DNA of 64,000 bases from Streptomyces rapamycinicus NRRL 5491. GTDB lineage: Bacteria; Actinomycetota; Actinomycetes; Streptomycetales; Streptomycetaceae. The DNA is taken from NCBI RefSeq assembly GCF_024298965.1, contig NZ_CP085193.1, positions 1,860,001 through 1,924,000 of the forward strand, given 5' to 3'. A model generated the notes under the pieces. The model was not told where the DNA came from, made no database searches, and saw only the letters and a list, made by a program, of their open reading frames with translations. Made by a program: the position numbers and the translations under genes. Below, piece by piece: positions 7,713-21,208 of this stretch (position 1 is its first letter; the number at the start of each line of letters is the position of its first letter).

Positions 7713-8612
7713 ATGTCCATGTCCCAAACGCCGCTCCCCTCCTCGCAGGGGCGTCACGGGGGACGCCGAGCTCGTGGCGGACGACGAGCCGCTCGCCGGA
7801 CCCAGCAGCGTGATCCATCCGGACTGGGATGGCCACGCCATATCCGGATCTATGCCGTCGTCGGCTCCATCGCACTGTCCTTGTACGTGACATGGAGCGC
7901 CGGCGCGTTCTCGAAGATGTTCGTGTTCCTCGACTTCGGCGCGGGTGTGCTCGCGCTGGTCTGTCTCACTTCGGCGGTGCTGTGGGGGCTCGCCGCGACC
8001 GACCAGATGATCCTGCACACCAAGCAGCGGCTGCTGGCCCAGGCCATCCACCGGGCGGCCGCGGTAGCCGGACTGCTCTTCCTGGCCGTTCACATCTGGG
8101 TCAAGGTCGCGGAGAGCCACACCAACACCGCGTCCATCGCGATACCGTTCGCTGACGCAAATCAGCCGGTGCTGATCGGGCTCGGCACCATCGCCGGCTA
8201 TCTCTTCGTGATCGCCGCGGTGACCGGTGCGGCCCGCAGCTCGTTCGCCTCCAGGGGCAACTCCCGCTGGCGCTACCGCTGGTGGCGGGCGCTGCATGTG
8301 GGTGCCTACCCCGCGTGGTGCGCCGCGCTGATCCACGGTCTGAAGGCGGGACGCGCCGCCAAGATCTGGGCGACCTACGGTTACATCGCGGCGCTCGCCG
8401 GGGTGGCCATCGCGCTGTGGCTGCGGCTGGTGCAGCGGCGGCGCCAGGACATCGACCGGGCGGACGGCATCGAGGTCAGGAACCCTCCGGCCCGCAGCAT
8501 GCAGGAGGGCCGGACCGGACGGTCCGATCCCACCGTGCCGCGCCCCCGTTCGGCCGAGCCCGGCCGGTATGACAGCCAGCCGCTCGGTGCCTCTCGTGGG
8601 TGGGACCGGTGA
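7713..8612 (+). CDS. multi-pass membrane protein, ferric reductase-like/haem-binding transmembrane domain
   Basis: 299 residues from the ATG at 7713 (GGGAGG at 7702-7707, 5 bases away). A longer in-frame start at 7596 lacks a ribosome site. After a very basic N-terminus (GGRRARGGRRAARR) there are about six hydrophobic helices, e.g. IYAVVGSIALSLYV, GAGVLALVCLTSAVLWGL, GLLFLAVHIWV, GYLFVIAAVTGA and YIAALAGVAIALWL. Paired histidines in helices (AIHRAAAV and AVHIW; then ALHVG and ALIHGLK) fit bis-haem ligation as in ferric-reductase-like and cytochrome b561-like proteins. Its stop overlaps the next start (GTGA), so it is coupled to the NuoF-ferredoxin protein. It probably passes electrons across the membrane (inference). 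Confidence 0.75.
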   Translation: MSMSQTPLPSSQGRHGGRRARGGRRAARRTQQRDPSGLGWPRHIRIYAVVGSIALSLYVTWSAGAFSKMFVFLDFGAGVLALVCLTSAVLWGLAATDQMILHTKQRLLAQAIHRAAAVAGLLFLAVHIWVKVAESHTNTASIAIPFADANQPVLIGLGTIAGYLFVIAAVTGAARSSFASRGNSRWRYRWWRALHVGAYPAWCAALIHGLKAGRAAKIWATYGYIAALAGVAIALWLRLVQRRRQDIDRADGIEVRNPPARSMQEGRTGRSDPTVPRPRSAEPGRYDSQPLGASRGWDR

Positions 8613-10123
8613 TCACGACCAAACCCAGGCTCGCCTGTGTCGATCCGCCCCGGCTGCTGGCCGGGCTCGACGAGGTGTACCGGCTCGACCGCGTCGGCCA
8701 TCTGACCGTCCATGGCACCATGCCGGCCCTCCGGGCGGACGAACTCGTGGCGCTCGCGGAGAACATCGATCTGCGCGGGCGCGGCGGCGCCGGTTTCCCC
8801 TTCGCCAAGAAGGTCCAGGCCGTCGTGGAGTCGGCCGGCCGGCGCGAGGGCCGCTGCACCGTGGTGGTCAACGGCAGTGAGGGCGAGCCCAGTTGCCTCA
8901 AGGACACCGCGCTGCTGCTGCACACCCCGCATCTGGTGATCGACGGCGCCGTGCTGGCCGCCGAGGCACTCGGCGCCGAGGAGGTGGCCATCGCGGTGCA
9001 CCGCCAGGACGTCGAGGAGTCCGTGGCCGCCGCGATCGCCGAACGCGGCCCCAGTGGCGTCCCGGTGGGGGTGAGCCGCACCCCGGACCGGTTCGTGGCC
9101 GGTGAGGGCGGCGCGGTCATCAACGGCATCAGCGGCGCCCCGGCCATCCCCAACGGCCGGAAGATCCGGACCAGCGACAGCGGGCTCAGCGGGCTGCCCA
9201 CCCTGCTGTCCAACACCGAGACCTTCGCCCAGCTCGCGGTGGCCGCGCGGATGGGCGCCCTGCCGTACCGCTCGGTGGGGCTGCCCACCGAACCGGGCAC
9301 CACGCTGCTCACGGTCGGTGGCAAGTACGTGATGGAGACACCCACCGGGGTGCCGCTGACCTACGTCCTGGAGCTGTGCGGCCTCACCCCCGGACAGGCG
9401 GTGCTGGTGGGCGGCTACCACGGCAAGTGGCTGGACCCCAAGAGCATCAACGCCGCCACCATCTCCCGGGAGTCCATGAAGAAGTACGGCGCCCGGCTGG
9501 GCGCGGGTGCGGTGCTGCCCATCCCCGAGAACACCTGCCCGCTCGGCGAGACCGCGCGGATCGCGCGCTGGCTGGCCGCCGAGACGGCCGGTCAGTGCGG
9601 GCCCTGCTTCATCGGGCTGCCCGCGCTCGCGGACGCCATCGGCCAGGTGGAGCGCGGCGGCGGCCGGTCCTCGATCGACAATGTGCGCGCCTACGTCAAC
9701 TCGGTGAAGAAGCGCGGGGCCTGCAGCCATCCCGATGGCACCGCCGGTTTCGTGACCACCGCGCTGGACGCGTTCCCCGAGGAGTTCGAGGCGCATGCGC
9801 TCGGGGCCGGCTGCGGACGGCCCACGATGGGGGTGCTGCCGCTGCCGGAGGACGCCCTGCCGCTCGCCCTGCCGCCCGCCCCGCTGAACCCCGCGGTGCG
9901 CGACGAGCGCCGCCAGCGAGGGCCGACGGAGAAGCTCCTGGTGGACTGGTCGCTGTGCCAGGGCCATGGGCTGTGCGCGGACATCCTGCCGCCCGAGGTG
10001 CTGACGCTCGGGATCGACGGCTATCCGTCCTCGGCCACCATGGAAGTGCCCCGGCAACTGCGGGCGCAGGCGGTCCGCGCGGTCCGCCGCTGCCCCGCCC
10101 TGGCGCTGCGCATCGAGGAGTAG
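8609..10123 (+). CDS. NuoF-like flavoprotein fused to a C-terminal ferredoxin
   Basis: 504 residues from the GTG at 8609 (GTGA overlap with the upstream stop). The N-terminal part matches complex I subunit NuoF: FMN/NADH glycine-rich loop GRGGAGFP at 57-64, NGSEGEPSCLKD, an SLBB-like middle, then the iron-sulfur region. The usual ESCGxCxPC reads ETAGQCGPC: the first cysteine is Ala, while two cysteines and a distal one (RGACSHP) remain. The last 60 residues are a small ferredoxin (CQGHGLC and a distal CP), of the single-cluster [3Fe-4S] type found with actinomycete P450s. It probably moves electrons from NAD(P)H via flavin and Fe-S centres to the membrane haem protein upstream (inference). 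It is not part of a nuo operon. Confidence 0.85.
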   Translation: MITTKPRLACVDPPRLLAGLDEVYRLDRVGHLTVHGTMPALRADELVALAENIDLRGRGGAGFPFAKKVQAVVESAGRREGRCTVVVNGSEGEPSCLKDTALLLHTPHLVIDGAVLAAEALGAEEVAIAVHRQDVEESVAAAIAERGPSGVPVGVSRTPDRFVAGEGGAVINGISGAPAIPNGRKIRTSDSGLSGLPTLLSNTETFAQLAVAARMGALPYRSVGLPTEPGTTLLTVGGKYVMETPTGVPLTYVLELCGLTPGQAVLVGGYHGKWLDPKSINAATISRESMKKYGARLGAGAVLPIPENTCPLGETARIARWLAAETAGQCGPCFIGLPALADAIGQVERGGGRSSIDNVRAYVNSVKKRGACSHPDGTAGFVTTALDAFPEEFEAHALGAGCGRPTMGVLPLPEDALPLALPPAPLNPAVRDERRQRGPTEKLLVDWSLCQGHGLCADILPPEVLTLGIDGYPSSATMEVPRQLRAQAVRAVRRCPALALRIEE

Positions 10124-10153
10124 GGGGACGATCCAGCCGCACCACCGACACCG

Positions 10154-10178
10154 CGACGGCCGTGAGGAACGGCCGTCG
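10154..10178 (+). terminator. hairpin terminator after the NuoF-ferredoxin gene
   Basis: CGACGGCCGT at 10154-10163 and ACGGCCGTCG at 10169-10178 form a perfect 10-bp stem with a 5-base loop (GAGGA), 30 bases past the stop codon. There is no T tract, typical for this genus. Confidence 0.7.
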
Positions 10179-10201
10179 ACTGCTGTGTGCTCAGCGATCC
10201 G

Positions 10202-10230
10202 GCGAATTTTGCGTCCGGTGACAAATTCGC
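10202..10230. promoter_or_regulatory. AT-rich inverted repeat upstream of a lipoprotein gene
   Basis: GCGAATTT at 10202-10209 and AAATTCGC at 10223-10230 are a perfect 8-bp inverted repeat with a 13-base spacer, about 90 bases before the lipoprotein start. Its low GC content stands out, and it is a good candidate operator or promoter element. Confidence 0.5.
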
Positions 10231-10320
10231 AAGCCGCTGAACGCCGGTCCGCACGGGCTCCGTATGGACCGGCGTCGGCGCAATCACCGCCGGACCGATC
10301 GAGATTGCAGAGGAATGGCC

Positions 10321-11301
10321 ATGGAGAAGCGGCGTCACATCGCATTCGCCGGGGTGTCGGTAGCGATGGTTCTGCTGACGGCGGCTTGCGGCAGCAGCAA
10401 GGACAACAGCGCGGGCAGCGCCAATGTGCAGCCGGCGGGTGGCAGCCAGACCGTGGGTGCGGGGGCCTCCGCGTCGGCGGGCGCGGGGGCCGCGGCCGGT
10501 ACCGGCGGCGGGTACGAGGCGGGCGGTGACACCGGGGCCGGCGCGGGCGGCGAGGCCGAGCGCACCGGTCCGGCGAAGCAGCTGGCGGTCAAGGAGGACG
10601 CCAAGCTGGGCAAGTTCGTCACCGACAGCAAGGGCTGGACGCTCTACCGGTTCGACGAGGACACCCCCAAGCCGGCCAAGTCCAACTGCAACGACGACTG
10701 CGCCACCAAGTGGCCCGCGGTGCCCGCTGACGACGCCGCGGCCACCACCGGTATCGAGTCCGGCAAGCTGGGCTCGGTCACCCGCGCCGACGGCACCAAG
10801 CAGCTGACGCTGGCGGGCTGGCCGGTCTACCGCTTCGCGGGCGACAACAAGCCCGGTGACACCAAGGGCCAGGGCGTGGGCGGCACCTGGAACGCGCTGG
10901 CGCCCGACGGCAAGCCGGCCGGCAAGACGGCGGCCGCGGACGACAGCCTCCAGCTGATGGTCAACAACAACGCCGAGCTGGGCAAGATCATCGTGGACGG
11001 CAAGGGCATGACCGTCTACCGGTTCAACAAGGACAGCGCCTGGCCGATGAAGACCGGCTGCCTCGGTGCCTGCCTGGACACCTGGAAGCCCGTCAAGGCC
11101 GTGGACACCACCAAGGTCGCCGGGCTCGACGCGGCGAAGGTCACCTCCTTCAAGCGCCCCGACGGCACCAAGCAGGCGGCGTTCGACTGCTGGCTGCTGT
11201 ACACCTTCACCGGGGACAAGAAGCCCGGTGACATCAACGGCCAGGGCGTGAAGGGCACCTGGTTCGCGGTCACCGACAAGGGCAAGAAGGCGGGCCAGTA
11301 A
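10321..11301 (+). CDS. lipoprotein with two COG4315-type secreted repeats
   Basis: 326 residues from the ATG at 10321 (AGAGGA at 10309-10314, 6 bases away; a second ATG at 10315 is too close). The signal sequence ends in LTAAC, a lipobox, so the protein is anchored outside the membrane. A Gly/Ala-rich linker follows to about 85. There are two tandem copies of the actinomycete secreted repeat: LGKFVTDSKGWTLYRFDEDT with NCNDDCATKWPAV, ending YRFAGDNKPGD; then LGKIIVDGKGMTVYRFNKDS with GCLGACLDTWKPV, ending YTFTGDKKPGD. Each copy has a conserved Cys pair. The function is unknown. Position after the haem protein and NuoF-ferredoxin suggests an extracytoplasmic redox partner (inference). Confidence 0.85.
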   Translation: MEKRRHIAFAGVSVAMVLLTAACGSSKDNSAGSANVQPAGGSQTVGAGASASAGAGAAAGTGGGYEAGGDTGAGAGGEAERTGPAKQLAVKEDAKLGKFVTDSKGWTLYRFDEDTPKPAKSNCNDDCATKWPAVPADDAAATTGIESGKLGSVTRADGTKQLTLAGWPVYRFAGDNKPGDTKGQGVGGTWNALAPDGKPAGKTAAADDSLQLMVNNNAELGKIIVDGKGMTVYRFNKDSAWPMKTGCLGACLDTWKPVKAVDTTKVAGLDAAKVTSFKRPDGTKQAAFDCWLLYTFTGDKKPGDINGQGVKGTWFAVTDKGKKAGQ

Positions 11302-11393
11302 GGGAGACAACCACTACTTTTGGTCCACCGCGGCGGGTGGCCCGAGGCGTCAGAGCCCGGGCCGCCCCGCCGGATTTTCTACGGGAGGTTGTT

Positions 11394-11933
11394 GTGTCAC
11401 TCGCTCTCCGTGCCACCGCGGTCGGCGCGGCCCTGCTGTTCCTGGCCGGCTGCGGTGGAGGCGATCGGGCACATGGCTCCGGCCACGAGCAGAAGAAGGT
11501 GTCCCCCGCCACCAAGGAGTTCGCCCAGCCCGGGAAGCCCGCGCCGCTGACGAAGATCGCCGACGCCATCGGGTGCAAGGCCACGATCATCACCGAGGCG
11601 GAGGAGCTGCGTCAGGGCTCCTGCGGGTCCGGTCAGAAGCGGTTCACGATGGTCACCTTCGCCACCGACAAGGGCCAGCACGACTGGCTGACCACGTCGA
11701 AGGACTACGGAGGCATGTACCTGGTCGGCAAGCGCTGGTCGGTCACCGGCCTGTCCATGGGCTCACTGGAGCCCCTGCGCGAGAAGATCGGCGGATCGCT
11801 CGAGAAGGGGATGTCCATGTCCCACGGCGGGTCCCGGGGCGGGACCAAGACCGGGGGCGGCATGGACGGGATGGACGGCATGGAGGGCATGGACGGCTCG
11901 GCGAGCCATGCGGGTCACGACGGGAAGAAGTGA
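11394..11933 (+). CDS. small lipoprotein with Met/His-rich tail
   Basis: 179 residues from the GTG at 11394 (ACGGGAGG at 11381-11388, 5 bases away). A lipobox follows a short signal (LLFLAGC). The mature part has two cysteines (IGCKATI, GSCGSGQ) and an unassigned alpha/beta-like sequence. It ends in GGMDGMDGMEGMDG and SHAGHDGKK, a Met- and His-rich tail of the kind that can bind copper or other metals. The gene follows the COG4315 lipoprotein by 92 bases on the same strand and probably shares its transcript. I do not recognise the family. A metal-binding or redox accessory role is an inference. Confidence 0.7.
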   Translation: MSLALRATAVGAALLFLAGCGGGDRAHGSGHEQKKVSPATKEFAQPGKPAPLTKIADAIGCKATIITEAEELRQGSCGSGQKRFTMVTFATDKGQHDWLTTSKDYGGMYLVGKRWSVTGLSMGSLEPLREKIGGSLEKGMSMSHGGSRGGTKTGGGMDGMDGMEGMDGSASHAGHDGKK

Positions 11934-11978
11934 CCCGCGGCGCCCGCCGGCCAGGGCGGTGAGCGTGGTTTGCGCCCC

Positions 11979-12656
11979 TCAGGCCGCCCGGGAGTCCGCC
12001 CACTTGACCAGGTCCGGGTCGGCGAGGGTGGAGACCCACACATCGACCGGCGGGGGCTCGTCCACGGGCTTCCGCGGGCCCACGCCGAGCACTCTCAGCC
12101 CGGCGCGCGAGGCGGACAGAAACCCGCAGTGGGAGTCCTCCACCGCGAGGGCGTCCTCGGGAGCCGCCCCGCACAGCCGGGCGGCCTCCAGGTAGACGTC
12201 GGGGTACGGTTTGGGCCGCACGTCCCCCTCGGGGACCAGCACATGGCCGAAGTACCGCAGCAGCCCGGCCTTGGCGAGCCCGTCCTCGACGACGTCCCGC
12301 GGGCAGTTGCTGGCCACGGCCAGCGGTGCGAAGGCGGCCGCCTTCGCGACCAGTTGGGGCGCCCCCGGCATGGTGACCGGGTCGTCGGCCACCAGCCGGC
12401 GGAAGGCGTCCAGGAGTTGCCCGGTCATTTCGTCGGCGAGTTCGGGGCGACCGGCGAATTCGGCCAGCATTCGGCCGCATTCGGTGTAGTGGAGCCCCTT
12501 CGTGCGCCGTGCGAACTCCTCGTCGGGGGCGGTTCCATGGCTTCTGAGGACCACTTCGCGCGCCTCCACCCAGTGTCGTTCGGAATCCATCAGGGTGCCG
12601 TCACAGTCGAAGACGATGGCGGCTGGGGTCCATCCGAGAAACTTTTCGGCTGTCAT
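11979..12656 (-). CDS. HAD-IA family phosphatase (MmfP/beta-phosphoglucomutase-like)
   Basis: 225 residues. Motif I FDCDGTLMDS at 15-24 holds the two catalytic Asp; motif II Ser/Asn is in VASNCPRD; the motif III Lys is in RPKPYPD; motif IV is AVEDSHCG. It is a cytosolic phosphohydrolase of subfamily IA with an alpha-helical cap. It lies 273 bases downstream of the AfsA-like gene on the same strand. In methylenomycin-furan synthesis, an AfsA homologue (MmfL) works with a HAD phosphatase (MmfP) that removes the phosphate left from dihydroxyacetone phosphate. A matching role here is a reasonable inference, but general sugar-phosphate phosphatase activity is equally consistent with the sequence. 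Confidence 0.85.
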   Translation of the reverse strand: MTAEKFLGWTPAAIVFDCDGTLMDSERHWVEAREVVLRSHGTAPDEEFARRTKGLHYTECGRMLAEFAGRPELADEMTGQLLDAFRRLVADDPVTMPGAPQLVAKAAAFAPLAVASNCPRDVVEDGLAKAGLLRYFGHVLVPEGDVRPKPYPDVYLEAARLCGAAPEDALAVEDSHCGFLSASRAGLRVLGVGPRKPVDEPPPVDVWVSTLADPDLVKWADSRAA

Positions 12657-12805
12657 CTGTCTGCCGTTCCATGGGAGGTGGAGGAATCGGCGCAGGGGAT
12701 GCCTGTACCTGCGGGAGCCGCGCGGTGGAAAACGTCCTGGCGGCTCGTGAGGGCGCTGGGCGCCGACCGCTGTCGTCGTACAGGCCGTGGGGTTCGCCTG
12801 CCCGA

Positions 12806-12830
12806 AACATAACGATCACTACGTTAGTTT
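12806..12830. promoter_or_regulatory. ARE-like inverted repeat upstream of the HAD phosphatase
   Basis: AACATAACG at 12806-12814 and CGTTAGTTT at 12822-12830 match as inverted repeats at 7 of 9 positions across 7 bases. The element is AT-rich in a GC-rich setting, about 150 bases upstream of the HAD gene start. It resembles the loosely conserved autoregulatory elements bound by gamma-butyrolactone receptors. The assignment is a guess supported by the receptor gene 1.1 kb away. Confidence 0.45.
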
Positions 12831-12872
12831 GATGACCTGCAGTAAGCAAGAGGCTACTCAGTGTCGGCGTTT

Positions 12873-12928
12873 TGTTCGTCGTTCAGCCTGTTCGTCGTCA
12901 TATTGTTCGTCGCACGGCGTGTTCGCCG
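12873..12928. repeat. four phased direct repeats TGTTCGTCG
   Basis: Copies at 12873-12881, 12889-12897, 12904-12912 and 12920-12928 (the last reads TGTTCGCCG) start 15-16 bases apart. They lie just past the stop of the AfsA-like gene and before the HAD gene promoter region. Regular spacing of about one and a half helical turns suggests a protein-binding array or local slippage duplication. Confidence 0.6.
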
Positions 12929-12929
12929 C

Positions 12930-13862
12930 TCAGAGGTACTGGAGCACGCCGACCGCCGTGCAGATACCGGCCTGGCGCAGCCGGAAGACACACGTCCGGC
13001 CGTGGGAGGTGCACTCGACCACGGCCGGCGGATACGACTCGGTGAAGCGGATCGCCTTCATCCGGCAGGCGACGGGCCGGGTCAGCGCCCCGCCGGTGGC
13101 CAGCGCCGCGGCCTGCCGGGCGCCCTCCAGCAGCACCAGGCCCGGCATATGGTCGCTCCAGTGGTCGAAGAAGAACGGATGGCGGGGGTCGGCGGGGTCG
13201 AGGTAGACCACTCCCCCGTCCCGCACCACCAGGACGTCCCGGGCCGCCGGAACGGCCAGTTGCGCAGGTGAGGGCCGTACGGCGGCACGCAATCTGCGGC
13301 GCGCGGTGTGCCCGTGGACGGCGGCCCGGGTCTCCGCGTAGGTCGTGCCGTCGAGGAAGCGCGCGGTGCCCCCGGCCCATGCGAAGAGCTTGCCGCCCGC
13401 CGACAGCACCACATCCAGCCGCATCCCGGTGACGAAGCGTCCGCAGGGGCTGGTGCGGACGTCGGTGACGGCGGCCAGGCAGGTGATGTCGGAGGCCCCG
13501 TACGGCGCCCGGGGCTCGGTCTCGGGGTCCAGCCGGTAGGAGATGTCCCGGATCAGGAAGTGCGCCCCCGCGGGCACCGCGTAGTACCGCGTGGGGATGT
13601 AGATCCCCAGCTCGCGCAGGGTTTCCGCGATCATCAGCGGATGATGGCGGCCGTCTCCGCCGTGCGGGAAGGTGGGGTGGGACCTCGGCCACTGGGCCGC
13701 GGCCTCGAACCGGTTGTCACCGTGCGTACGCACATCGGTGAGCAGCACCTCGGCCACCGAGACCCGGTGCACCGCCTCCCGCGCCACCGTGCGGGACCAG
13801 CTGAGCGGCCGCCCGGCGGGACCGGACGGCTCCGAAAGGCCATGAGCCTCACGAACGATCAC
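12930..13862 (-). CDS. AfsA/ScbA-family signal (gamma-butyrolactone or related) synthase
   Basis: 310 residues from the GTG at 13862. Two AfsA hot-dog repeats are visible. The first, about residues 30-150, has VHRVSVAEVLLTDV, a DGRHHPLMIAETLRELGIYI segment and FLIRDISYRLDPE. The second, about 190-300, has VYLDPADPRHPFFFDHWSDH followed by MPGLVLLEGARQAA. The family condenses a beta-ketoacyl thioester with dihydroxyacetone phosphate, the first committed step to gamma-butyrolactone, butenolide or furan signals. It is divergent from a TetR receptor 105 bases away, the classic synthase/receptor layout. No Shine-Dalgarno sequence precedes the GTG, and a TATTTT-like -10 lies just upstream, so a leaderless message is possible. 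Confidence 0.9.
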   Translation of the reverse strand: MIVREAHGLSEPSGPAGRPLSWSRTVAREAVHRVSVAEVLLTDVRTHGDNRFEAAAQWPRSHPTFPHGGDGRHHPLMIAETLRELGIYIPTRYYAVPAGAHFLIRDISYRLDPETEPRAPYGASDITCLAAVTDVRTSPCGRFVTGMRLDVVLSAGGKLFAWAGGTARFLDGTTYAETRAAVHGHTARRRLRAAVRPSPAQLAVPAARDVLVVRDGGVVYLDPADPRHPFFFDHWSDHMPGLVLLEGARQAAALATGGALTRPVACRMKAIRFTESYPPAVVECTSHGRTCVFRLRQAGICTAVGVLQYL

Positions 13863-13865
13863 CTT

Positions 13866-13884
13866 AAAATACTAATAATGTTTG
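13866..13884. promoter_or_regulatory. ARE-like AT-rich imperfect palindrome between synthase and receptor genes
   Basis: AAAATACTAATAATGTTTG at 13866-13884 is a degenerate inverted repeat (AAAATACT against the complement of AATGTTTG, about 5 of 8 matching). Read on the minus strand it begins CAAACATTA, sharing AAACAT with the site at 12806-12830. It lies directly before the AfsA-like start and about 85 bases before the receptor start, where receptor-binding sites are usually found. Confidence 0.5.
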
Positions 13885-13967
13885 ACCTGTCTCGCCTCAT
13901 CACCATCTCAGGCCGAAAGTCCGCTAAGTTCTCCCCGTCACATCCGACGGGGAAGGACGGCGAACAC

Positions 13968-14609
13968 GTGCAAGAACGGGCCGAACAAACACGCCGATCC
14001 CTTCTGGAGGCCGCAGCGTTCCTTTTCGACGAGCGGGGATACGCGGGAACGAGCATCAGCGACATCACCTCCCGGTCCGGCCACACCAGCGGCGCGATCT
14101 ATTTCCACTACACGAGCAAGGAACGGCTCGCCCTCGCCGTGGTGGAGGAGCACTTCGCCACCTGGCCCCCGCTGATCGAACGCTTCGCCACCCTCGACAC
14201 GCCGCCCCTGGAGCAACTCGTCCGGCTCAGCTTCGCGGTGGCCCGCGCCTTCCGCGACGACATCGTGGTGCGGGCCGGAGCCCGGCTGTGGGCCGAGCGC
14301 ACCCTGATCGAGGCACCCATGCCGCCGCCCTTCGTGGGGTGGATCGACGCGGTGGGGGAGCTGATGGAGAAGGCGCGCGCCGAGGGCGATCTGGCCACGC
14401 ATGTCGACCCGCTGCCCGCCGCCCGGACCGTCGTGTGCGCCTTCTTCGGGCTGCACACCGTCTCCGAGGCGCTCGACGGGCGGCGGCTGGTCGAGGACCG
14501 GCTGGCCGATCTGTGGACCCTGCTGCTGCCCTCGCTCCAGGCCCGGCCCGGGGACACGCCGGGGCTGCTGGCGCTCGCCCGTGGCGACGCCGCGCCGCCG
14601 TCAGAGTGA
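13968..14609 (+). CDS. TetR-family gamma-butyrolactone receptor-like repressor (ScbR/ArpA type)
   Basis: 213 residues from the GTG at 13968 (GGAAGGA at 13951-13957, 10 bases away). The frame is open far upstream, but that part is antisense to the synthase gene. The HTH is at about 10-55: RRSLLEAAAFLFDERGYAG, SISDITSRSGHTSGAIYFHY and TSKERLALAVVEEH. The phrase GAIYFHYTSKE is characteristic of this receptor class. The ligand domain holds a buried Trp-containing segment (RLWAERTLIE). It is expected to repress the synthase and its own gene until the signal binds. Its 3' end overlaps the convergent SDR gene by 9 bases. Confidence 0.88.
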   Translation: MQERAEQTRRSLLEAAAFLFDERGYAGTSISDITSRSGHTSGAIYFHYTSKERLALAVVEEHFATWPPLIERFATLDTPPLEQLVRLSFAVARAFRDDIVVRAGARLWAERTLIEAPMPPPFVGWIDAVGELMEKARAEGDLATHVDPLPAARTVVCAFFGLHTVSEALDGRRLVEDRLADLWTLLLPSLQARPGDTPGLLALARGDAAPPSE

Positions 14610-15284
14610 GGCGCCCGCGCACATCACCAGCGTCTGGCCGGTGACCGCGCCGCCCTCCGGGCCCAGCAGGAACGAGGTCAGCCCCGCCACCTCCTCCGCG
14701 CGGACCAGCCGCCCCAGCGGTGGCATCACGGGCGGGGTGCGGCTGCGGCCGGGGTCCCGCAGCATGGGGGTGTCCGTCGGCCCGGGCGCCACCACGTTGA
14801 CCGTGACCGCCCTTGGCGCCAGCTCGGCCGCCCAGGACCGGGCCAGCGCGGGCAGCGCCGCCTTGGTGGCCGCGTACTGGCTCTTGCCGGGGACACCCGT
14901 CATCGTCCGGCTGCCCACCAGCACCACCCGGCCACCGTCCGCGACCCGGTCCACCAGCGTGTCCACCAGGACGCCCGCCGCCTGCACATGGATCCGCCAC
15001 ATGAGGGATCCGTCCTCGGGGTCGAGCTCCCCCAGCCGCGCCGAGCGCTGAACGCCCGCCGCGTGCACGATCGCGTCCACCCCGGACACCGGGGCCAGCA
15101 CCTCGGGGAGGCCCTCCGGCCGGGACAGATCGGCCGGAATCCAGTGCAGCCGCGTCACCGCGTGCGCGGGGGCCGTACGGCTGAGCCCGGTGATCCGCCA
15201 CCCCTCGTCCAGCAGCCGGGCGGCGATCGCGGCGCCGATACCGGAGCTGACACCGGTGACCACGGCGTGCCGGGACTCAGCCAT
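14601..15284 (-). CDS. short-chain dehydrogenase/reductase
   Basis: 227 residues. NAD(P)-binding TGVSSGIGAAIAARL at 10-24, NAG-equivalent VHAAGVQRS, catalytic Ser in VLVGSRTM, and YAATKAA (YxxxK). The C-terminus GGAVTGQTLVMCAGASL is typical of classical SDRs. It is the last gene of the leftward operon. Its ATG overlaps the end of the sialidase-like gene (ATGGCTGA), so it is translationally coupled. By position it could act in the sugar-acid catabolic route, or reduce a signal precursor in the manner of BarS1/ScbB, because it abuts the receptor gene. The operon argument favours the first. Confidence 0.88.
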   Translation of the reverse strand: MAESRHAVVTGVSSGIGAAIAARLLDEGWRITGLSRTAPAHAVTRLHWIPADLSRPEGLPEVLAPVSGVDAIVHAAGVQRSARLGELDPEDGSLMWRIHVQAAGVLVDTLVDRVADGGRVVLVGSRTMTGVPGKSQYAATKAALPALARSWAAELAPRAVTVNVVAPGPTDTPMLRDPGRSRTPPVMPPLGRLVRAEEVAGLTSFLLGPEGGAVTGQTLVMCAGASL

Positions 15285-16482
15285 CGGCCGCCCAATCCGG
15301 TGTGACGCGGACGTACTTGATGGCCTGGCGGTGGTAGGTGTACGCGATGTGCAACGTGCCGTCGGGGCCCTGCCGGATGGTGGGGTAGGACAGCTCGCGG
15401 TTGAGCCGGTCGCGTGAGTTGTTGGTCAGGCAGTGGCCGTCGCCGGTGTCCAGATCGCGCCGTACCGGCCAGGTCAGGCCGTGGTCGGAGGACAGCGCGA
15501 GGGTCATCGGGGCGCGGGGCGCGCCCCAGAAGGCGCCGGGCGCGGAGTCGTCCGGCGTGGCGGCCGGGGCCGGTGTCTCTCCGGTCTGCCCCTCATCGTC
15601 GATCTCGTCGTAGAGGGACACCCGGCGGGCCGTGGCGTCCGCGCGGCTGCTGTGGTTGTAGACCAGCGCGAGCCGTCCGTCGGCGAGCGGGACGTACTGC
15701 ACGGAGGAGTTGTTGTTGGGCAGTTCGGTGCGGACCGGCTCGCTCCAGGTCTCCCCGCCGTCGGTGCTGTGCGAGCGGTACACCGCGTCCGCCCAGCGGC
15801 TGCGGAAGAGGGCCAGCAGGGTGGTGTCCGGCAGTTGGTGGACGTTCATGTGCACACAGCCGGTCGAGCCCGGCACCGGCCGCTCGCGCCAGGTGCGCCC
15901 CTGGTCGTCACTGATCATCACCGCGCTGGTGTCGCGGTCGCCGACCCATTTGACACCGGGTGTGGCCACGCAGTGGAACACCGGCAACAGCCACCGCCCG
16001 GAGTCCAGGACGGCCACCGGCTGACGGATGAACACCCCGCCCGCCTCCGTGGCCGGGAACAGCGTACGCGGCGCGCCCCAGGTGACACCCGCGTCGGCGG
16101 ACACCCGCAGCCGGACCTCGGCGGTGTCCTGATCGCCCGCCCGCTGGGCGGTGTACAGCAACCACAGCTCCCCGTCGGGGGTCGGGAACAGCAGCGGGTT
16201 CTGCTCCGAGCGGGTGTCGTCGTCCGAGAGCCGGACCGGCTCGGTCCAGGTGCCGGCCCCCGGGGCGAGCCGCGAGAACCACACGGAGATGTCCGGCACG
16301 CCCTCCTGCGTGCCCCCGAACCACACACATCCGAGGTCCCCTCCGGGCAGCACGGTGAGGTTGGCGGCATGGTTCTGCACGGCGGGCGCGGGCAAGAACG
16401 CCTCCCGCAGCCCCGGGTCCCCCGGGCGCGCCCGAAGCCGCCCGTCCGTCAGCGGTATCGCGGTGTCATCGTCGGCGGTCAT
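15277..16482 (-). CDS. cytosolic BNR-repeat (sialidase-like, BNR_2) protein
   Basis: 401 residues from the ATG at 16482, with GAGGAG 10 bases upstream; the TTG at 16500 lies on that ribosome site. Four Asp-box motifs (SxDxGxTW) are visible: SADAGVTW, SDDQGRTW, STDGGETW and SSDHGLTW, the hallmark of six-bladed sialidase propellers. NHAANLTVLPGGDLGCVWFGG and VWFSR at the start match the BNR_2 family, which holds exo-sialidases and related glycosidases or lyases. There is no signal peptide, so the substrate must enter the cell first, consistent with the transporter in the same operon. Catalytic identity within the family cannot be decided from motifs alone. Confidence 0.85.
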   Translation of the reverse strand: MTADDDTAIPLTDGRLRARPGDPGLREAFLPAPAVQNHAANLTVLPGGDLGCVWFGGTQEGVPDISVWFSRLAPGAGTWTEPVRLSDDDTRSEQNPLLFPTPDGELWLLYTAQRAGDQDTAEVRLRVSADAGVTWGAPRTLFPATEAGGVFIRQPVAVLDSGRWLLPVFHCVATPGVKWVGDRDTSAVMISDDQGRTWRERPVPGSTGCVHMNVHQLPDTTLLALFRSRWADAVYRSHSTDGGETWSEPVRTELPNNNSSVQYVPLADGRLALVYNHSSRADATARRVSLYDEIDDEGQTGETPAPAATPDDSAPGAFWGAPRAPMTLALSSDHGLTWPVRRDLDTGDGHCLTNNSRDRLNRELSYPTIRQGPDGTLHIAYTYHRQAIKYVRVTPDWAADG

Positions 16483-16545
16483 GTTCGCCGGGCTCCTCAA
16501 GGTTGTGGTGATACGGGTTCGGGGGGTGCGGAAGAACCCACGGAC

Positions 16546-17565
16546 CTACCGGTTGTACGCGGGCATCGGCCCCCGTAGCCGCGCCCCCACCTCGTCGCAC
16601 GCCGCCGCCACCTCCGCCGGGAGCGGCCCCGCCGCCGCGGCGGCCAGGTTGGCGCGGAGGTGCTCCACACGGGAGCCGCCGAGCAGCAGCGCGTCCACCC
16701 CGTCCCGCCCGAGCAGCCAGCGCAGCGAGAGGTCGACCAGCGGGATGCCCGCCTCCTCGGCGATCCGCGACAGGCTCCGTACGCCCTCGAAGAGCCCGGC
16801 GTCCCAGTAGCGCCGCCGGTACATCTCCGCCACCCGCGAGTCGCCGAAGCGCCCCGACTCCGGCTGCTCCTCAAAGGCATGACGGCCCGTCAGCAGGCCG
16901 CCGCCCAGCGGGTTGTAGACCATGGTGCGCAGCCCGCTGGTGGCCGCGTACTCCCGGTACTCCTCCTCGATCCGCCGTGCCAGCAGGTTGTACAGCTGCT
17001 GGGCCACCACCGGGCGCGGCGCGCCGACCCGGTCGGCGGTGTGGGTGACCTCGGCGATCTGCCAGGCGGCGTAGTTGGAGACGCCGAGTGCGAGGATCTT
17101 GCCCTCGGTGACGAACTCGGCGACCGTGCCGAGGGTCTCCTCCAGCGGCGTCGCCCGGTCGGGCTGGTGCAGATAGAACAGGTCGACACGGTCGGTGCCC
17201 AGGCGGCGCAGGCTGCCCTCGAGGGCCGCGCGCATCCCGCGCGCGGACAGCGGTGAGTGGCCGCCGGCGTCGGGGTGCGGCATACCGGCCTTGGTGGCGA
17301 GCACTATCCGGTCGCGGCGGCCGGGCAGCAGCTCGGCCAGGATCGTCTCGGTGGTGCCGCCCGCGTAGGCGTTCGCGGTGTCCACCCCCGTCACCCCGGC
17401 GTCCAGCGCGGTGTCCAGCATCGCGGCGGCGCCCGCCCGGTCCACCGTGTCACCGAAGGTCATGGTGCCGAGCACCAGCCGCGAGAGCCGCACCGGGACG
17501 CCCGGCAGGGCGACCCCTCCGGGAGACGCCTGGCTGGTGGTGTGGGTGTGCGCATGCGCGTTCAC
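16546..17565 (-). CDS. aldo/keto reductase
   Basis: 339 residues from the GTG at 17565. AGGAG lies 7 bases upstream and the GTG overlaps the stop of the ATPase gene as GTGA. AKR hallmarks: [27 protein letters not shown] (catalytic Asp/Tyr), VLATKAG (Lys), [10 protein letters not shown] (His), [10 protein letters not shown], and the cofactor loop ending [15 protein letters not shown]. It is an NADPH-dependent oxidoreductase acting on sugar aldehydes or ketones, close to the YajO/Tas-type AKRs. It sits between transporter ATPases and the sialidase-like gene, so it is likely a catabolic enzyme of the same pathway. Confidence 0.9.
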
Positions 17566-18491
17566 TGCGTCGCTCCTGGTTCCTGGCCGGCCCCGACGGG
17601 TGCCTGGTCGGCCGCGACGGGTGCCTGGTCGGCCGCGACGGGTGCCTGGTCGGCCGCGACGGGTGCCTGGTCGGCCGCGATCGCGGACACGAGGGCGCGC
17701 GGTTTGCGTCCCCGCATGGTCGTCGGGTCGAGCGCCGCCCGTCGCAGCGCCCGGGTGTAGGGCTCGACGGGCGCGGAGAGCACCGTTCCGGTGGGCCCGG
17801 ATTCGATGATCCGCCCGGCGCGCATCACCACCACCTCGGAGCTGATCTCGCGGACCACGCCGAGGTTGTGGGAGATGACGATGTAGGCGAGCCCCCGTTC
17901 GGTCTGGAGCTCCCGCAGCAGCTGGAGCACCTGGGCCTGTACGGAGACGTCCAGCGCGGAGGTGGCCTCGTCGCACACCAGCAGCTCGGGGCCGCTGGCC
18001 AGGGCGCGGGCGATGCCGATCCGCTGCCGCTGGCCGCCGGAGAACTCGGCCGGGCGGCGCTGGAGCGCACCGGCGGGCAGCCCGACCTGGTCGATGAGGG
18101 CGGCGGCGCGGCGGGCGCGTTCGGCCCCGGAGCGCATGCCGTTCAGCCGCAGCGGTTCGGCCACGATCTCCTCGGCCGTCAGATGCGGGTCCAGGGAGCC
18201 GTACGGATCCTGGAAGACCATCTGCACCCGCTTGCGCAGCGGACGCAGCCGCCGTTCGGGCAGGCCCGCGATGTCGGTTCCGTCGAGCAGGATCCGGCCC
18301 CGGGTGGGGCGCAGCAGCCGGACGATGGAGCGTGCGATGGTGGACTTGCCGCAGCCGGACTCGCCGACGACGCCGAGCGCGCCGCCGGGCGGGACGGCGA
18401 AGCTGACGCCGTCCACCGCGCGGAAGACACCGCCGGCGACCGGGTATTCGACCACCAGGTCCTCGACGGCCAGCAGGGGTGTGGGGGTCAC
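17562..18491 (-). CDS. oligopeptide/dipeptide-type ABC transporter ATP-binding protein (DppF/OppF-like) with repeat tail
   Basis: 309 residues. Walker [10 protein letters not shown] at about 38-46, Q-loop [12 protein letters not shown], signature [15 protein letters not shown], Walker [15 protein letters not shown] and the switch His in VISHNLG. The OppF-type C-terminal region ([24 protein letters not shown]) marks the peptide/nickel subfamily. The last 40 residues are an unusual APVAADQ heptad repeat, absent from typical family members. Its GTG overlaps the upstream stop. It energises uptake together with the partner ATPase, two permeases and a family-5 binding protein. Confidence 0.9.
17595..17678 (-). 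repeat. four tandem 21-bp repeats inside the ABC ATPase gene
   Basis: The unit gacgggtgcctggtcggccgc occurs four times without change (17595-17615, 17616-17636, 17637-17657, 17658-17678). On the minus strand it encodes the heptad APVAADQ in frame, so copy number can vary without breaking the gene. Identity between copies implies recent expansion. Confidence 0.9.
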
Positions 18492-19348
18492 AGCGCCTCC
18501 TCGGTGACGGCGGCCGCGGGGGTCTCGTCCCAGGGGCCCAGGGTGGGCACGGCGGCGAGCAGATCGCGGGTGTACCGCTCGCGGGGGTGGTCCACGATCT
18601 GTTCCACCGGCCCCGACTCCACGAAACGGCCGTCGCGCATGACGTGGATGCGGTCGGAGACCAGCCGGGCCACCCCCAGGTCGTGGGTGATCATCAGGAT
18701 GCCGATGCCGGTGCGCTCCTGCAGCTCCATCAGCAGGTCCAGGACGCCCGCCTGGACGGTGACGTCGAGCGCCGAGGTCGGCTCGTCGGCCACCAGCAGC
18801 CGGGGCTCGGCGGCCAGGGCGATGGCGATGAGGACGCGCTGGAGCATGCCGCCGGAGAACTGGTGCGGGTAGGCGCCCCAGCGGGTCTCGGGGCGGGGGA
18901 TCCGCACCCGGCCGAGCAGTTCGACGCCCTTGGCACGGGCGTCGGCGCGGGACATCCCCGGGTGGCGCAGCCGGAGTGCCTCGCCCAGCTGTCGGCCGAT
19001 GGTGTGCACCGGGCTGAGCGCGGTCATCGGGTCCTGGGGGATCAGGGACACCCCGCGGCCGCGGATCCGCCCGGCGGCGGTGGCGTCGGCGATGACGTCG
19101 GCGCCGAAGATCCGGGCCGTTCCGGAGAGGACGGCGAGCCCTTCGGGCAGCAGCCGCAGCAGCCCCATCGCGGTGGTGGACTTGCCGGAGCCGGACTCGC
19201 CGATGATGGTGACCGTCTCGCCGGGGCCGATGGTGAAGCCGACCCCGTCGACCGCGCGCACCACACCGCGGTCGGTGATCAGCTCGATCTGCAGGTCCTC
19301 GACCTCCAGCAGCGGGGTGTTCGTCGGATCGCTCGTGGTGTCGCTCAT
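18488..19348 (-). CDS. oligopeptide/dipeptide-type ABC transporter ATP-binding protein (DppD/OppD-like)
   Basis: 286 residues from the ATG at 19348, which overlaps the permease stop as ATGA; the frame extends further upstream but only as antisense shadow. Walker [11 protein letters not shown]-loop [12 protein letters not shown], signature [15 protein letters not shown], Walker [14 protein letters not shown] and MITHDLGVA. The tail [18 protein letters not shown] is the OppD-type extension. It forms the ATPase heterodimer with the following gene. Confidence 0.92.
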
Positions 19349-20274
19349 CGGGAGCCCTCCGTCGTACGCCGTCGGGTGCGGTCGCGCAGTCCGTCGCCCA
19401 GCAGGTTGACCCCGACCACCAGCAGCACGATGACGAGGCCGGGCAGGGTCACCAGCCACCAGGAGGTGGTGATGTAGTCCTGGCCGTCGGAGATGATCCG
19501 GCCCCAGGTGGCGAACGGCCGCTGGGGGCCCGCGCCGAGGTAGCTGAGCGCGCTCTCCAGCAGCACCGCCTGGGCGAGCAGCAGCAGGACCACGAGCGAT
19601 GCCTGGCGGACGATGTTGGGGATGACATGGCGGGCCAGGATGGCGATCCGGGGCAGCCCCAGCACCTGCGCGGCGGCCACATACGGCTTCTCCCGCTCGA
19701 CCAGCACCAGGGACCGGGTCAGCCGGGCCACCTCGGGCCACTGGGCGATGGCGATGACGCAGGTGATGACGGTGACGGAGGGGCCGAAGAGGGCCACGAC
19801 GAGCAGCAGCATCATCAGCAGCGGCAGCGACATCTGGGCCTCCAGCAGCCGGGAGACGACGGCGTCCACCCAGCGGCCGTAGTACCCGGCGGCCGCGCCC
19901 GCGACGATGCCGATGAGACCGGAGACGACGACGGCGAGCACCCCGACCGTCAGGGACACCTGGCCGCCGTGCAGCACCCGGGAGAGCACATCGCGGCCGA
20001 GCTGGTCGGTGCCGAAGAGATGGCCGTCGGTCAGCGGGGCGAGCCGGCGCCGGGAGAGGTCCTGGTCGCCCGCGCCGGGCAGGGGCAGCACCTGGGCGAG
20101 TGCCACCGGCACCACGACCAGCAGGGTGCACACCGCGCCCGTCCACAGCTTGAGGCTCGCGCTGCGGCGGCGCCGGGTGGCGGTGGCGCGGGCCAGATCC
20201 CTGGCGGTGACCGCGCTGGGGCGGGTCCCGGGGCCGGCCTTCGCGGGGGCCGGGGGTTCGAGGGCGCCTTGCAT
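19345..20274 (-). CDS. ABC transporter permease (DppC/OppC-like)
   Basis: 309 residues. An N-terminal cytosolic stretch precedes the first helix (LWTGAVCTLLVVVPVAL). The periplasmic-side motif HLFGTDQLGRDVLSRVLHG is diagnostic of DppC/OppC permeases. Five or six helices follow, with the EAA loop ARLTRSLVLVEREKPYVAAA and GLPRIAILARHVIPN contacting the ATPases. It lies 1 base after the DppB-like gene and overlaps the next gene by 4. Confidence 0.92.
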   Translation of the reverse strand: MQGALEPPAPAKAGPGTRPSAVTARDLARATATRRRRSASLKLWTGAVCTLLVVVPVALAQVLPLPGAGDQDLSRRRLAPLTDGHLFGTDQLGRDVLSRVLHGGQVSLTVGVLAVVVSGLIGIVAGAAAGYYGRWVDAVVSRLLEAQMSLPLLMMLLLVVALFGPSVTVITCVIAIAQWPEVARLTRSLVLVEREKPYVAAAQVLGLPRIAILARHVIPNIVRQASLVVLLLLAQAVLLESALSYLGAGPQRPFATWGRIISDGQDYITTSWWLVTLPGLVIVLLVVGVNLLGDGLRDRTRRRTTEGSR

Positions 20275-20275
20275 C

Positions 20276-21205
20276 TCAGGCCGCCTTTCCCAGGCGTACC
20301 CGCGGGTCGAGCAGCGGGTACGCCAGGTCGATGAGGAGTTGGACGAGGACCGCCAGCGCGGCGGTGACCAGCACGGTCGCCTGGATCAGCGGATAGTCGC
20401 GGGTCTCCAGGGCGCGGACGACCAGCGAGCCGACCCCGGGCCAGCCGAACACCACCTCGACCACCACGACACCGTTGAGCATCGCGGCGAACCGGGTGCC
20501 GAGCGCGGTGAGCACCGGGATGGCGGAGTTGCCCATGGCGTAGCGCCAGGTCAGTACGCGGTTCGAGACCCCGCGGGAACGGGCGACGGTGACGTACGGC
20601 GAGGCGAGGGCCGCCACCATCTCCCGGCGGACCAGCCGGGAGATCAGCGCCATCTGGAGGATCGCCACGGTGACGGTGGGCAGGATCAGTCCGCCCCAGG
20701 TGGTGAAGCCGGATGCGGGCAGCACCGGGACGGCCACGGCGAAGAGGGTCAGCAGCATCACGCCGATCCAGAAGTCCGGCATGGACTGCCCGGCGATGGT
20801 CAGCACATTGGCGCCCAGCTCCCGCTTGGTGTCGGCGCGGCGGGCCATCCACACGCCGAGCGGCACGGCCACCACGGTGGTGAGGGCGATCGCGGAGAGG
20901 GAGAGGGTGATGGTGTACGGCACCCGGTCCAGCACCACGTCCAGGGCGGGCGCGTGGAAGGAGTAGCTGGTGCCGAGGTCGCCGGTGAACAGATCGCGCA
21001 GGAAGAGCCCGTACTGGGTGAGCAGTCCGCGGTCCAGGCCGAACTGCTCCCGGATCCGGGCGAGGTCCGCGCTGGAGGGGTTGGGCCCGGCCAGGGCGGC
21101 GGCGGGGTCGCCCGGGGCCATGCGGACCAGGACGAAGACGGTGGAGAGGGTCAGGAAGACGGTCAGGACGCTCTGGCCCAGGCGGCGTATCAGATAGCGC
21201 GGCAC
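20276..21205 (-). CDS. ABC transporter permease (DppB/OppB-like)
   Basis: 309 residues from the GTG at 21205, 3 bases past the binding-protein stop. It starts MPRYLIRRLGQSVLTVFLTL, then LVRMAPGDPAAALAG, both typical of DppB/OppB/NikB permeases. Six helices are visible. The EAA-type loop SPYVTVARSRGVSNRVLTWR and NSAIPVLTALG lie in the second half, followed by VVVVEVVFGWPGVGSLVV. It forms the translocation pore with the DppC-like protein. Confidence 0.92.
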   Translation of the reverse strand: MPRYLIRRLGQSVLTVFLTLSTVFVLVRMAPGDPAAALAGPNPSSADLARIREQFGLDRGLLTQYGLFLRDLFTGDLGTSYSFHAPALDVVLDRVPYTITLSLSAIALTTVVAVPLGVWMARRADTKRELGANVLTIAGQSMPDFWIGVMLLTLFAVAVPVLPASGFTTWGGLILPTVTVAILQMALISRLVRREMVAALASPYVTVARSRGVSNRVLTWRYAMGNSAIPVLTALGTRFAAMLNGVVVVEVVFGWPGVGSLVVRALETRDYPLIQATVLVTAALAVLVQLLIDLAYPLLDPRVRLGKAA

Positions 21206-21208
21206 GGC

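Follow-up and report, generated by a model that had tools for sequence, protein, structure and literature searches.

A putative single-operator unit of a HAD-IA phosphatase, an ScbR/MmfR-type receptor and an AfsA-type synthase in Streptomyces rapamycinicus and its relatives

We analysed a 64,000-nucleotide stretch of Streptomyces rapamycinicus NRRL 5491 (contig NZ_CP085193.1, positions 1,860,001 to 1,924,000; hereafter the window, whose first letter is position 1), taken from a genome that forms one 12.47-Mb contig, and within it a compact locus that encodes an AfsA/ScbA-type synthase, a TetR-family receptor of the ScbR/MmfR type and a HAD-IA phosphatase. Judged by comparison with related genomes, the grouping of these three genes is beyond chance, and they constitute an old three-gene unit of the Streptomycetaceae. 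The HAD gene is preceded by a conserved site that recurs before HAD in nearly all relatives with a linked receptor. We suggest, with a little less than even confidence, that the receptor is a repressor dedicated to the promoter of this one phosphatase, that the phosphatase belongs to dihydroxyacetone (DHA) and dihydroxyacetone phosphate (DHAP) metabolism, and that the DHAP-derived product of AfsA is the likely ligand. The usual view of ScbR-type receptors is that they regulate antibiotic clusters together with the promoter of their own synthase.

The comparison rests on 131 HAD loci, comprising 64 triads (HAD, AfsA and receptor), 47 pairs (HAD and receptor without AfsA) and 20 HAD-only loci with no linked receptor. 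The same records occur in two collections in three cases (L022/L245, L024/L127 and L027/L187), so that 128 of the 131 are distinct, and all counts are inflated by kinship. The 111 receptor-linked loci include L182, counted as a pair rather than as HAD-only with its receptor at another contig end (G020), and L198, counted as a triad with its receptor on another contig (G102). Many gene starts come from a home-made open reading frame (ORF) caller or from extended alignments. Across 392 genomes of the genus Streptomyces, AfsA was found in 33 and HAD in 87 (both at E <= 1e-40), and the receptor in 79 (E <= 1e-50). The 88 HAD loci of this genus consist of 29 triads, one triad cut by a contig end, 43 divergent pairs with no AfsA in the sequence examined, and 15 that lack a linked receptor, one of them cut by a contig end and another carrying a receptor remnant.

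The regions upstream of the HAD genes share a 28-bp, partly palindromic site, and the copy in the window lies in the gap between HAD and AfsA. At a threshold score of 15, the site precedes HAD in 63 of the 64 triads, in all 47 pairs and in 4 of the 20 HAD loci without a linked receptor; taken together, it is present in 110 of 111 receptor-bearing loci against 4 of 20 others (Fisher p = 6e-16, uncorrected for kinship). The best of 393 base-shuffled regions scores 9.8 against the same matrix. The matrix was trained on the 88 Streptomyces-genus HAD upstream regions, which makes the counts there partly circular, and outside the training set the triads of other genera carry the site in 28 of 29 cases. 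Its orientation is identical in all positive HAD loci. The sole triad below threshold, L262, reaches 10.2 at the expected position, slightly more than the best shuffle. Embleya carries HAD on the opposite side of the receptor, and there the site is found with HAD, in the receptor-HAD gap. We infer from this co-occurrence that the receptor binds the putative operator at 12803-12830. By eye, the TATGTTT half of the site resembles the TATCTTT half of the autoregulatory element (ARE) of AvaR1 (PMC7347384; here and below, published work is cited for those parts of each paper that we consulted), a visual likeness rather than a statistical one.

The site is also close to unique within genomes. Scanning for its core pattern, which detects only close copies, returned one site in the genome of the window when up to three mismatches were allowed. 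With up to one mismatch allowed, each of the 30 pair genomes scanned (of 44 found) had exactly one site; with up to two allowed, so did 34 of 36 triad genomes, the exceptions being G311 with two sites and G498 with none. The single-site genomes come from six genera, and a reversed-pattern control gave no matches in any of the 66 genomes scanned. The AfsA-receptor gaps of 63 triads yielded no copy (best score 3.8, against the threshold of 15), nor did the sequence up to 200 bp from the receptor start in 46 pairs (best score 9.0). With one close copy per genome, located at HAD, and none found before AfsA or the receptor, the receptor therefore looks dedicated to the HAD promoter, and these comparisons support HAD as the regulated output.

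A few loci depart from the usual arrangement of receptor, HAD and site. At L135 (3998-5593), AfsA and the receptor occur without HAD, and the gene downstream of an operator-like site (score 29.5) encodes a glutaminase that carries EF-hand and ankyrin repeats, which would suit a receptor that has switched targets. At L250 (G410) and L243 (G413), HAD keeps its site although neither receptor nor AfsA turned up within some 4 kb; the receptor may lie elsewhere or have been lost. One genome, G136, contains two separate HAD-receptor pairs (L163 and L164), each with its own site.

The first-pass annotation had made the HAD phosphatase part of the locus, and the gene does stay with AfsA and the receptor both within the violaceusniger-type clade and in more distant genera. 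Fourteen of the 16 named loci matched by AfsA are 87-99% identical and fall in the Streptomyces violaceusniger-type clade or among its kin, with S. iranensis the nearest, and triads make up 29 of the 34 HAD loci in other Streptomycetaceae genera. HAD and receptor are divergent in all 72 Streptomyces-genus loci that have both on one contig. Across 53 triads, the pairwise distances of AfsA, HAD and the receptor correlate with r = 0.77-0.80, uncorrected for species descent. The pairs form one clade in a tree of concatenated HAD and receptor sequences, which has no outgroup and thus separates pairs from triads only. In a receptor tree rooted on MmfR, the pair clade (22 sequences drawn) branches among unresolved triads (34 drawn, with a very long branch for L205), and a single loss of AfsA in the pair clade is therefore likely, though not proven. 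In a tree of the HAD protein alone, the pair clade also includes six HAD-only rows.

The AfsA residues E80, R83, E246 and R249, contributed by both hotdog halves, are kept in at least 95% of 63 triad sequences and also in MmfL; we take these E/R motif residues to be catalytic. Forty-seven loci retain HAD, receptor and site without a linked AfsA, and on this comparison AfsA is dispensable to the HAD-receptor-site unit. AfsA-family genes (PF03756) are common, being present in 340 of the 392 Streptomyces-genus genomes. Eight PF03756-negative genomes were searched again with NF041195, which gave no match in seven and a weak, broken match in G283; for G176, G190, G223, G283 and G192, the lack of PF03756 means absence from a match listing. 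Five of the seven AfsA-negative genomes carry a pair (G027, G092, G176, G190 and G223) and two are HAD-only (G008 and G192). The genome of the window contains a second AfsA-domain gene (L138 7990-8979, on C1 near 863 kb), 27% identical and situated among other enzyme genes; among the genes called, no ScbR-type receptor adjoins it. In the S. violaceusniger NBRC 13459 draft (L017 6001-7879), the AfsA and HAD matches are each split in two pieces, either by sequencing error or through decay.

Assignment of the phosphatase to the HAD-IA class follows from a TIGR01509 score above cut-off and from retention of the catalytic motif residues. D17, D19, S116, K149, E173 and D174, together with the cap residues D24, E26, H28, W29, R33, G54, H56, C60 and G61, are kept in at least 97% of triad and pair relatives. 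One position (T10 to S10) separates triads from pairs, at 90% in each group; a further six are fixed in pairs and variable in triads. The invariant residues are thus common to both groups, which argues that the substrate is likely unchanged upon AfsA loss. Had the protein grouped with general sugar phosphatases of genomes without AfsA, the signal locus proposed in the first-pass annotation would have been in doubt. Its close relatives occur in 9 of 17 genera, all Streptomycetaceae, and in a class-wide sample of 197 genomes from 90 genera it was matched at E <= 1e-35 in Streptomyces only (5 genomes), so that it is no general sugar phosphatase; the other half of that concern did materialize, with HAD lacking a linked AfsA in the 47 receptor pairs and the 20 HAD-only loci. 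The MmfP-like route put forward for the locus finds no support, and orthology of the two phosphatases was rejected: MmfP matches TIGR01490 (HAD-IB) at 126 bits, the window protein is HAD-IA, and BLASTP found no match between them at E <= 1. Nor was an mmfH homologue detected (E <= 1e-8) near the window locus or in the 16 AfsA-matched loci, the only matches being at L021 and L028.

Beyond HAD, the commonest shared genes encode the DHA kinase subunits DhaK and DhaL (PF02733 at 346 bits and PF02734 at 149 bits in L019). They accompany HAD in 46 of the 131 loci, that is, 23 of 64 triads, 14 of 47 pairs and 9 of 20 HAD-only loci, lying tail to tail with HAD within 2 kb in 45 of them and 4-5 kb away on the HAD strand in L193. 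Sixteen loci (12 triads and 4 pairs) have under 2 kb of sequence beyond HAD; in those with at least 2 kb of flank, dhaKL is found in 45 of 115 (23 of 52 triads, 13 of 43 pairs and 9 of 20 HAD-only loci). AfsA-type enzymes take DHAP as their three-carbon partner (PMC7037778), and DHA kinase, AfsA and HAD could therefore meet at DHAP. We infer, from the dhaKL linkage and from the conservation of HAD without AfsA, that the HAD substrate lies within DHA/DHAP metabolism.

The locus had been read as one of signal-molecule type, and the family assignments bear out its synthase and its receptor: they score above the NF041195 and NF041196 cut-offs (Table 1), and the nearest solved relative of the receptor is the 6srn/7ky1 sequence (E = 1.3e-46), 6SRN being MmfR (PMC12442216). 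Using the pocket contacts described for AvaR1 and MmfR (PMC7347384, PMC12442216), we find that the alkyl-chain residues W127, V158 and F161 of AvaR1 are retained in the window receptor as W125, V156 and F159. After removal of near-identical clade members and short sequences, which left 55 triads and 46 pairs, the tryptophan is present in every receptor, the second position is V or I in all, and the phenylalanine is found in 55 of 55 and 45 of 46, respectively. The lactone-head contacts Q64, T162 and Q165 of AvaR1 are not kept, and map by way of MmfR to F63, F160 and H163. MmfR itself is without equivalents of Q64 and T162, and these differences therefore bear on the type of ligand rather than on family membership. 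Position 163 (Q165/Q185) is H in all 55 triads and C in 40 of 46 pairs. The median computed isoelectric point (pI) is 5.87 in 63 triad receptors (5.0-9.6) and 8.98 in 46 pair receptors (5.6-10.6), with overlapping ranges. True receptors are described as acidic to neutral and pseudo-receptors as basic (PMC5974925), so the more basic pair receptors suggest that AfsA loss accompanies a pseudo-receptor-like shift, apparently a single event in one clade.

In the mechanism that we propose, AfsA would join a beta-ketoacyl thioester to DHAP, and the DHAP-derived product, minus its phosphate, would be the ligand that lifts the receptor off 12803-12830, a role assigned to it by analogy with the receptor family. 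Release of the receptor would allow expression of the HAD gene, and the HAD protein would act on a three-carbon phosphate, either DHAP or a DHAP-derived ester or butenolide phosphate. If the substrate is a three-carbon phosphate of DHA/DHAP metabolism, the role of HAD would therefore not depend on AfsA alone. A further step, which we regard as doubtful, would have the AfsA product report DHAP levels inside the cell instead of serving, or before it came to serve, as a cell-to-cell hormone, with AfsA turning excess DHAP into the ligand, the receptor releasing the HAD gene and HAD draining triose phosphate that DHA kinase later recovers. Were this so, streptomycete hormone signalling would have grown from, or been wired into, triose-phosphate overflow control, and loss of AfsA would have left the receptor as a sensor of something else, with its more basic pI and the change from H163 to C.

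Several observations weigh against a dedicated repressor of DHA/DHAP metabolism. In the AfsA-receptor gap the scores are far below threshold, but the best of them beat 69% of shuffles where 50% is expected, so that a weak site of another shape may exist there. Over half of the HAD loci are without nearby dhaKL, no DhaK or DhaL match was found in the window or beside the locus in 14 clade relatives, and four DhaK genes lie elsewhere in the genome of the window, two of which share 63-66% identity with the linked kind. A DHAP phosphatase adjoining a DHA kinase would moreover constitute a futile cycle unless the two were separately timed, and the linkage may reflect inherited synteny rather than function. 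Finally, 37 of the 43 Streptomyces-genus pair genomes hold an AfsA-family gene elsewhere, which HAD could serve.

This last point also favours the strongest rival, a plausible one even if we would not call it probable, in which the unit is dedicated to signal biosynthesis: AfsA would make a butenolide phosphate, HAD would be the signal phosphatase, and the receptor would gate the phosphatase step in positive feedback. The likeness to MmfP would then have arisen by convergence and not descent, and relatives without AfsA would use an unlinked AfsA or be in decay. Such a role has been proposed for MmfP, SabP and SrrP, and published clusters pair AfsA homologues with phosphatases (PMC6930871, PMC12301235, PMC7037778). 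The prevalence of triads outside Streptomyces and the correlated AfsA, HAD and receptor distances fit it as well, and dhaKL could supply the DHAP. What speaks against this rival is that linked AfsA is absent from the pairs and HAD-only loci, that active-site residues are the same in pair and triad HADs, and that five pair genomes contain no detectable AfsA; the site is kept in every pair locus, and the pairs are therefore not simply decaying. A repair phosphatase that clears by-products of DHA kinase, with AfsA-receptor control added later, would account for dhaKL beside HAD in 9 of 20 loci with no receptor or AfsA found nearby and for a DhaK tree (built by a quick method) that largely tracks the HAD grouping. 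We consider it improbable, since under half of the loci have dhaKL beside HAD, and the activity is itself predicted from sequence. Less probable still is a classical antibiotic-controlling autoregulator, whose receptor would repress many secondary-metabolism genes with HAD a mere neighbour. The family membership of AfsA and receptor suits it, and related systems govern antibiotics (PMC5974925, PMC6930871), but single sites in 64 of 66 genomes, at the HAD promoter, and the lack of a copy found before AfsA or the receptor do not, although weaker sites would escape these scans.

The closest known arrangement is that of MmfR and mmfLHP, for the methylenomycin furan of S. coelicolor SCP1, which we compared through the S. 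anthocyanicus plasmid cassette L021 (same MmfR accession, other genes named by position). In both, an AfsA-type gene is divergent from the receptor and a HAD-superfamily phosphatase lies nearby. MmfP, however, is HAD-IB, whereas the window unit has a HAD-IA protein, no linked MmfH, and its site before the phosphatase rather than in the synthase-receptor gap; Y85, Q130 and Y144 of MmfR are replaced by F63, W108 and F122. The SabA-SabP-SabD/SabR1 and SrrX-SrrP butenolide systems likewise combine an AfsA homologue with a phosphatase (PMC6930871, PMC12301235; SabP and SrrP were compared by description only), but a dehydrogenase is also named there, and SabR1, unlike the proposed role of the window receptor, is reported to bind the promoters of synthase, receptor and regulator genes. 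Furan and butenolide routes also involve a dehydrogenase or flavoprotein (PMC7037778, PMC6930871), and the product therefore cannot be read off the window locus. Compared with canonical butyrolactone systems, the window unit shows no site copy in the synthase-receptor gap and no kept linked reductase. SbbR and SbbA of S. bingchenggensis, another large-genome Streptomyces, are encoded by divergent ScbR-type and AfsA-type genes of 621 and 888 nt, 159 bp apart, against 642 and 933 nt and 105 bp here, a comparison of dimensions and not directly of sequences; apart from its own promoter and milR, SbbR bound 11 of the 72 probes tested, with no common site reported in the part consulted (PMC5974925). 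The orphan receptors CprA and CprB resemble the pair loci in being ScbR-family members without a linked AfsA, and no HAD link is mentioned for them in the consulted part of PMC6930871.

HdpA of Corynebacterium glutamicum is a HAD member that, as described, hydrolyses DHAP, the activity proposed for the window HAD, and is likened to it by description only; we know of no receptor or AfsA link for HdpA. AfsA, ScbR-type receptors and clustered phosphatases are already known. A limited search found no paper on a HAD- or DHA-kinase-linked receptor, and a one-operator HAD-IA unit that survives AfsA loss and is linked to dhaKL is not described in the consulted parts of PMC7037778, PMC12301235, PMC5974925 and PMC6930871, nor the same HAD-IA/receptor/dhaKL unit in those of PMC10569655, PMC13307308, PMC5625687, PMC7347384 and PMC12442216. 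As far as we are aware, phosphatase action in butyrolactone-type synthesis is ill defined and the function of orphan receptors unsettled. Both can be addressed directly here, through one short DNA site, one candidate enzyme and natural comparisons with and without AfsA.

The four genes were confirmed as ORFs at the coordinates and on the strands first given for them (Table 1). Consensus promoters and terminators were not found in 12600-14000, and Rfam gave no match across 11900-15400.

Table 1. Features of the locus, in window coordinates, with database scores in bits.
Feature	Coordinates	Strand	Remarks
HAD-IA phosphatase gene	11979-12656	-	ORF; PF13419; TIGR01509 (HAD-IA) 51.7, cut-off 29.4; predicted receptor target
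Conserved operator-like site	12803-12830	-	About 145 bp before HAD start; minus-strand inverted repeat TAACG...CGTTA
AfsA/ScbA-type double-hotdog synthase gene	12930-13862	-	PF03756 110 (Pfam); NF041195 (ScbA/BarX) 258.9, cut-off 200 (NCBIfam)
AfsA-receptor intergenic region	13863-13967		Kept within clade; no site copy found
ScbR/MmfR-type TetR receptor gene	13968-14609	+	NF041196 (ScbR family) 223.9, cut-off 150 (NCBIfam); 45% identity to MmfR over 191 aa; computed pI 5.2
Short-chain dehydrogenase/reductase (SDR) gene	14601-15284	-	PF13561 (Pfam); 3' end overlaps receptor 3' end by 9 bp

The SDR had been counted, with some reserve, into the signal locus. Its overlap with the receptor and its run with neighbouring catabolic-type genes hold, but its membership in the unit does not and was rejected: adjacency of SDR and receptor is limited to some members of the violaceusniger-type clade, and in distant triads the SDR is not beside the receptor. 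Beyond this clade-limited SDR, no ketoreductase or butenolide reductase was found linked to the triad, the search being confined to linked genes. In the window, the SDR lies in a same-strand series of genes (14601-22783), the others encoding a BNR sialidase-like protein, an aldo/keto reductase and an ABC importer of the oligopeptide type; the series resembles one catabolic operon. On the other flank, convergent to HAD at 8609-11933, are genes for a NuoF-like protein with a ferredoxin domain, a Lipoprotein_15 protein and a small Met/Gly-rich protein with no Pfam match; this is the position at which many relatives carry dhaKL.

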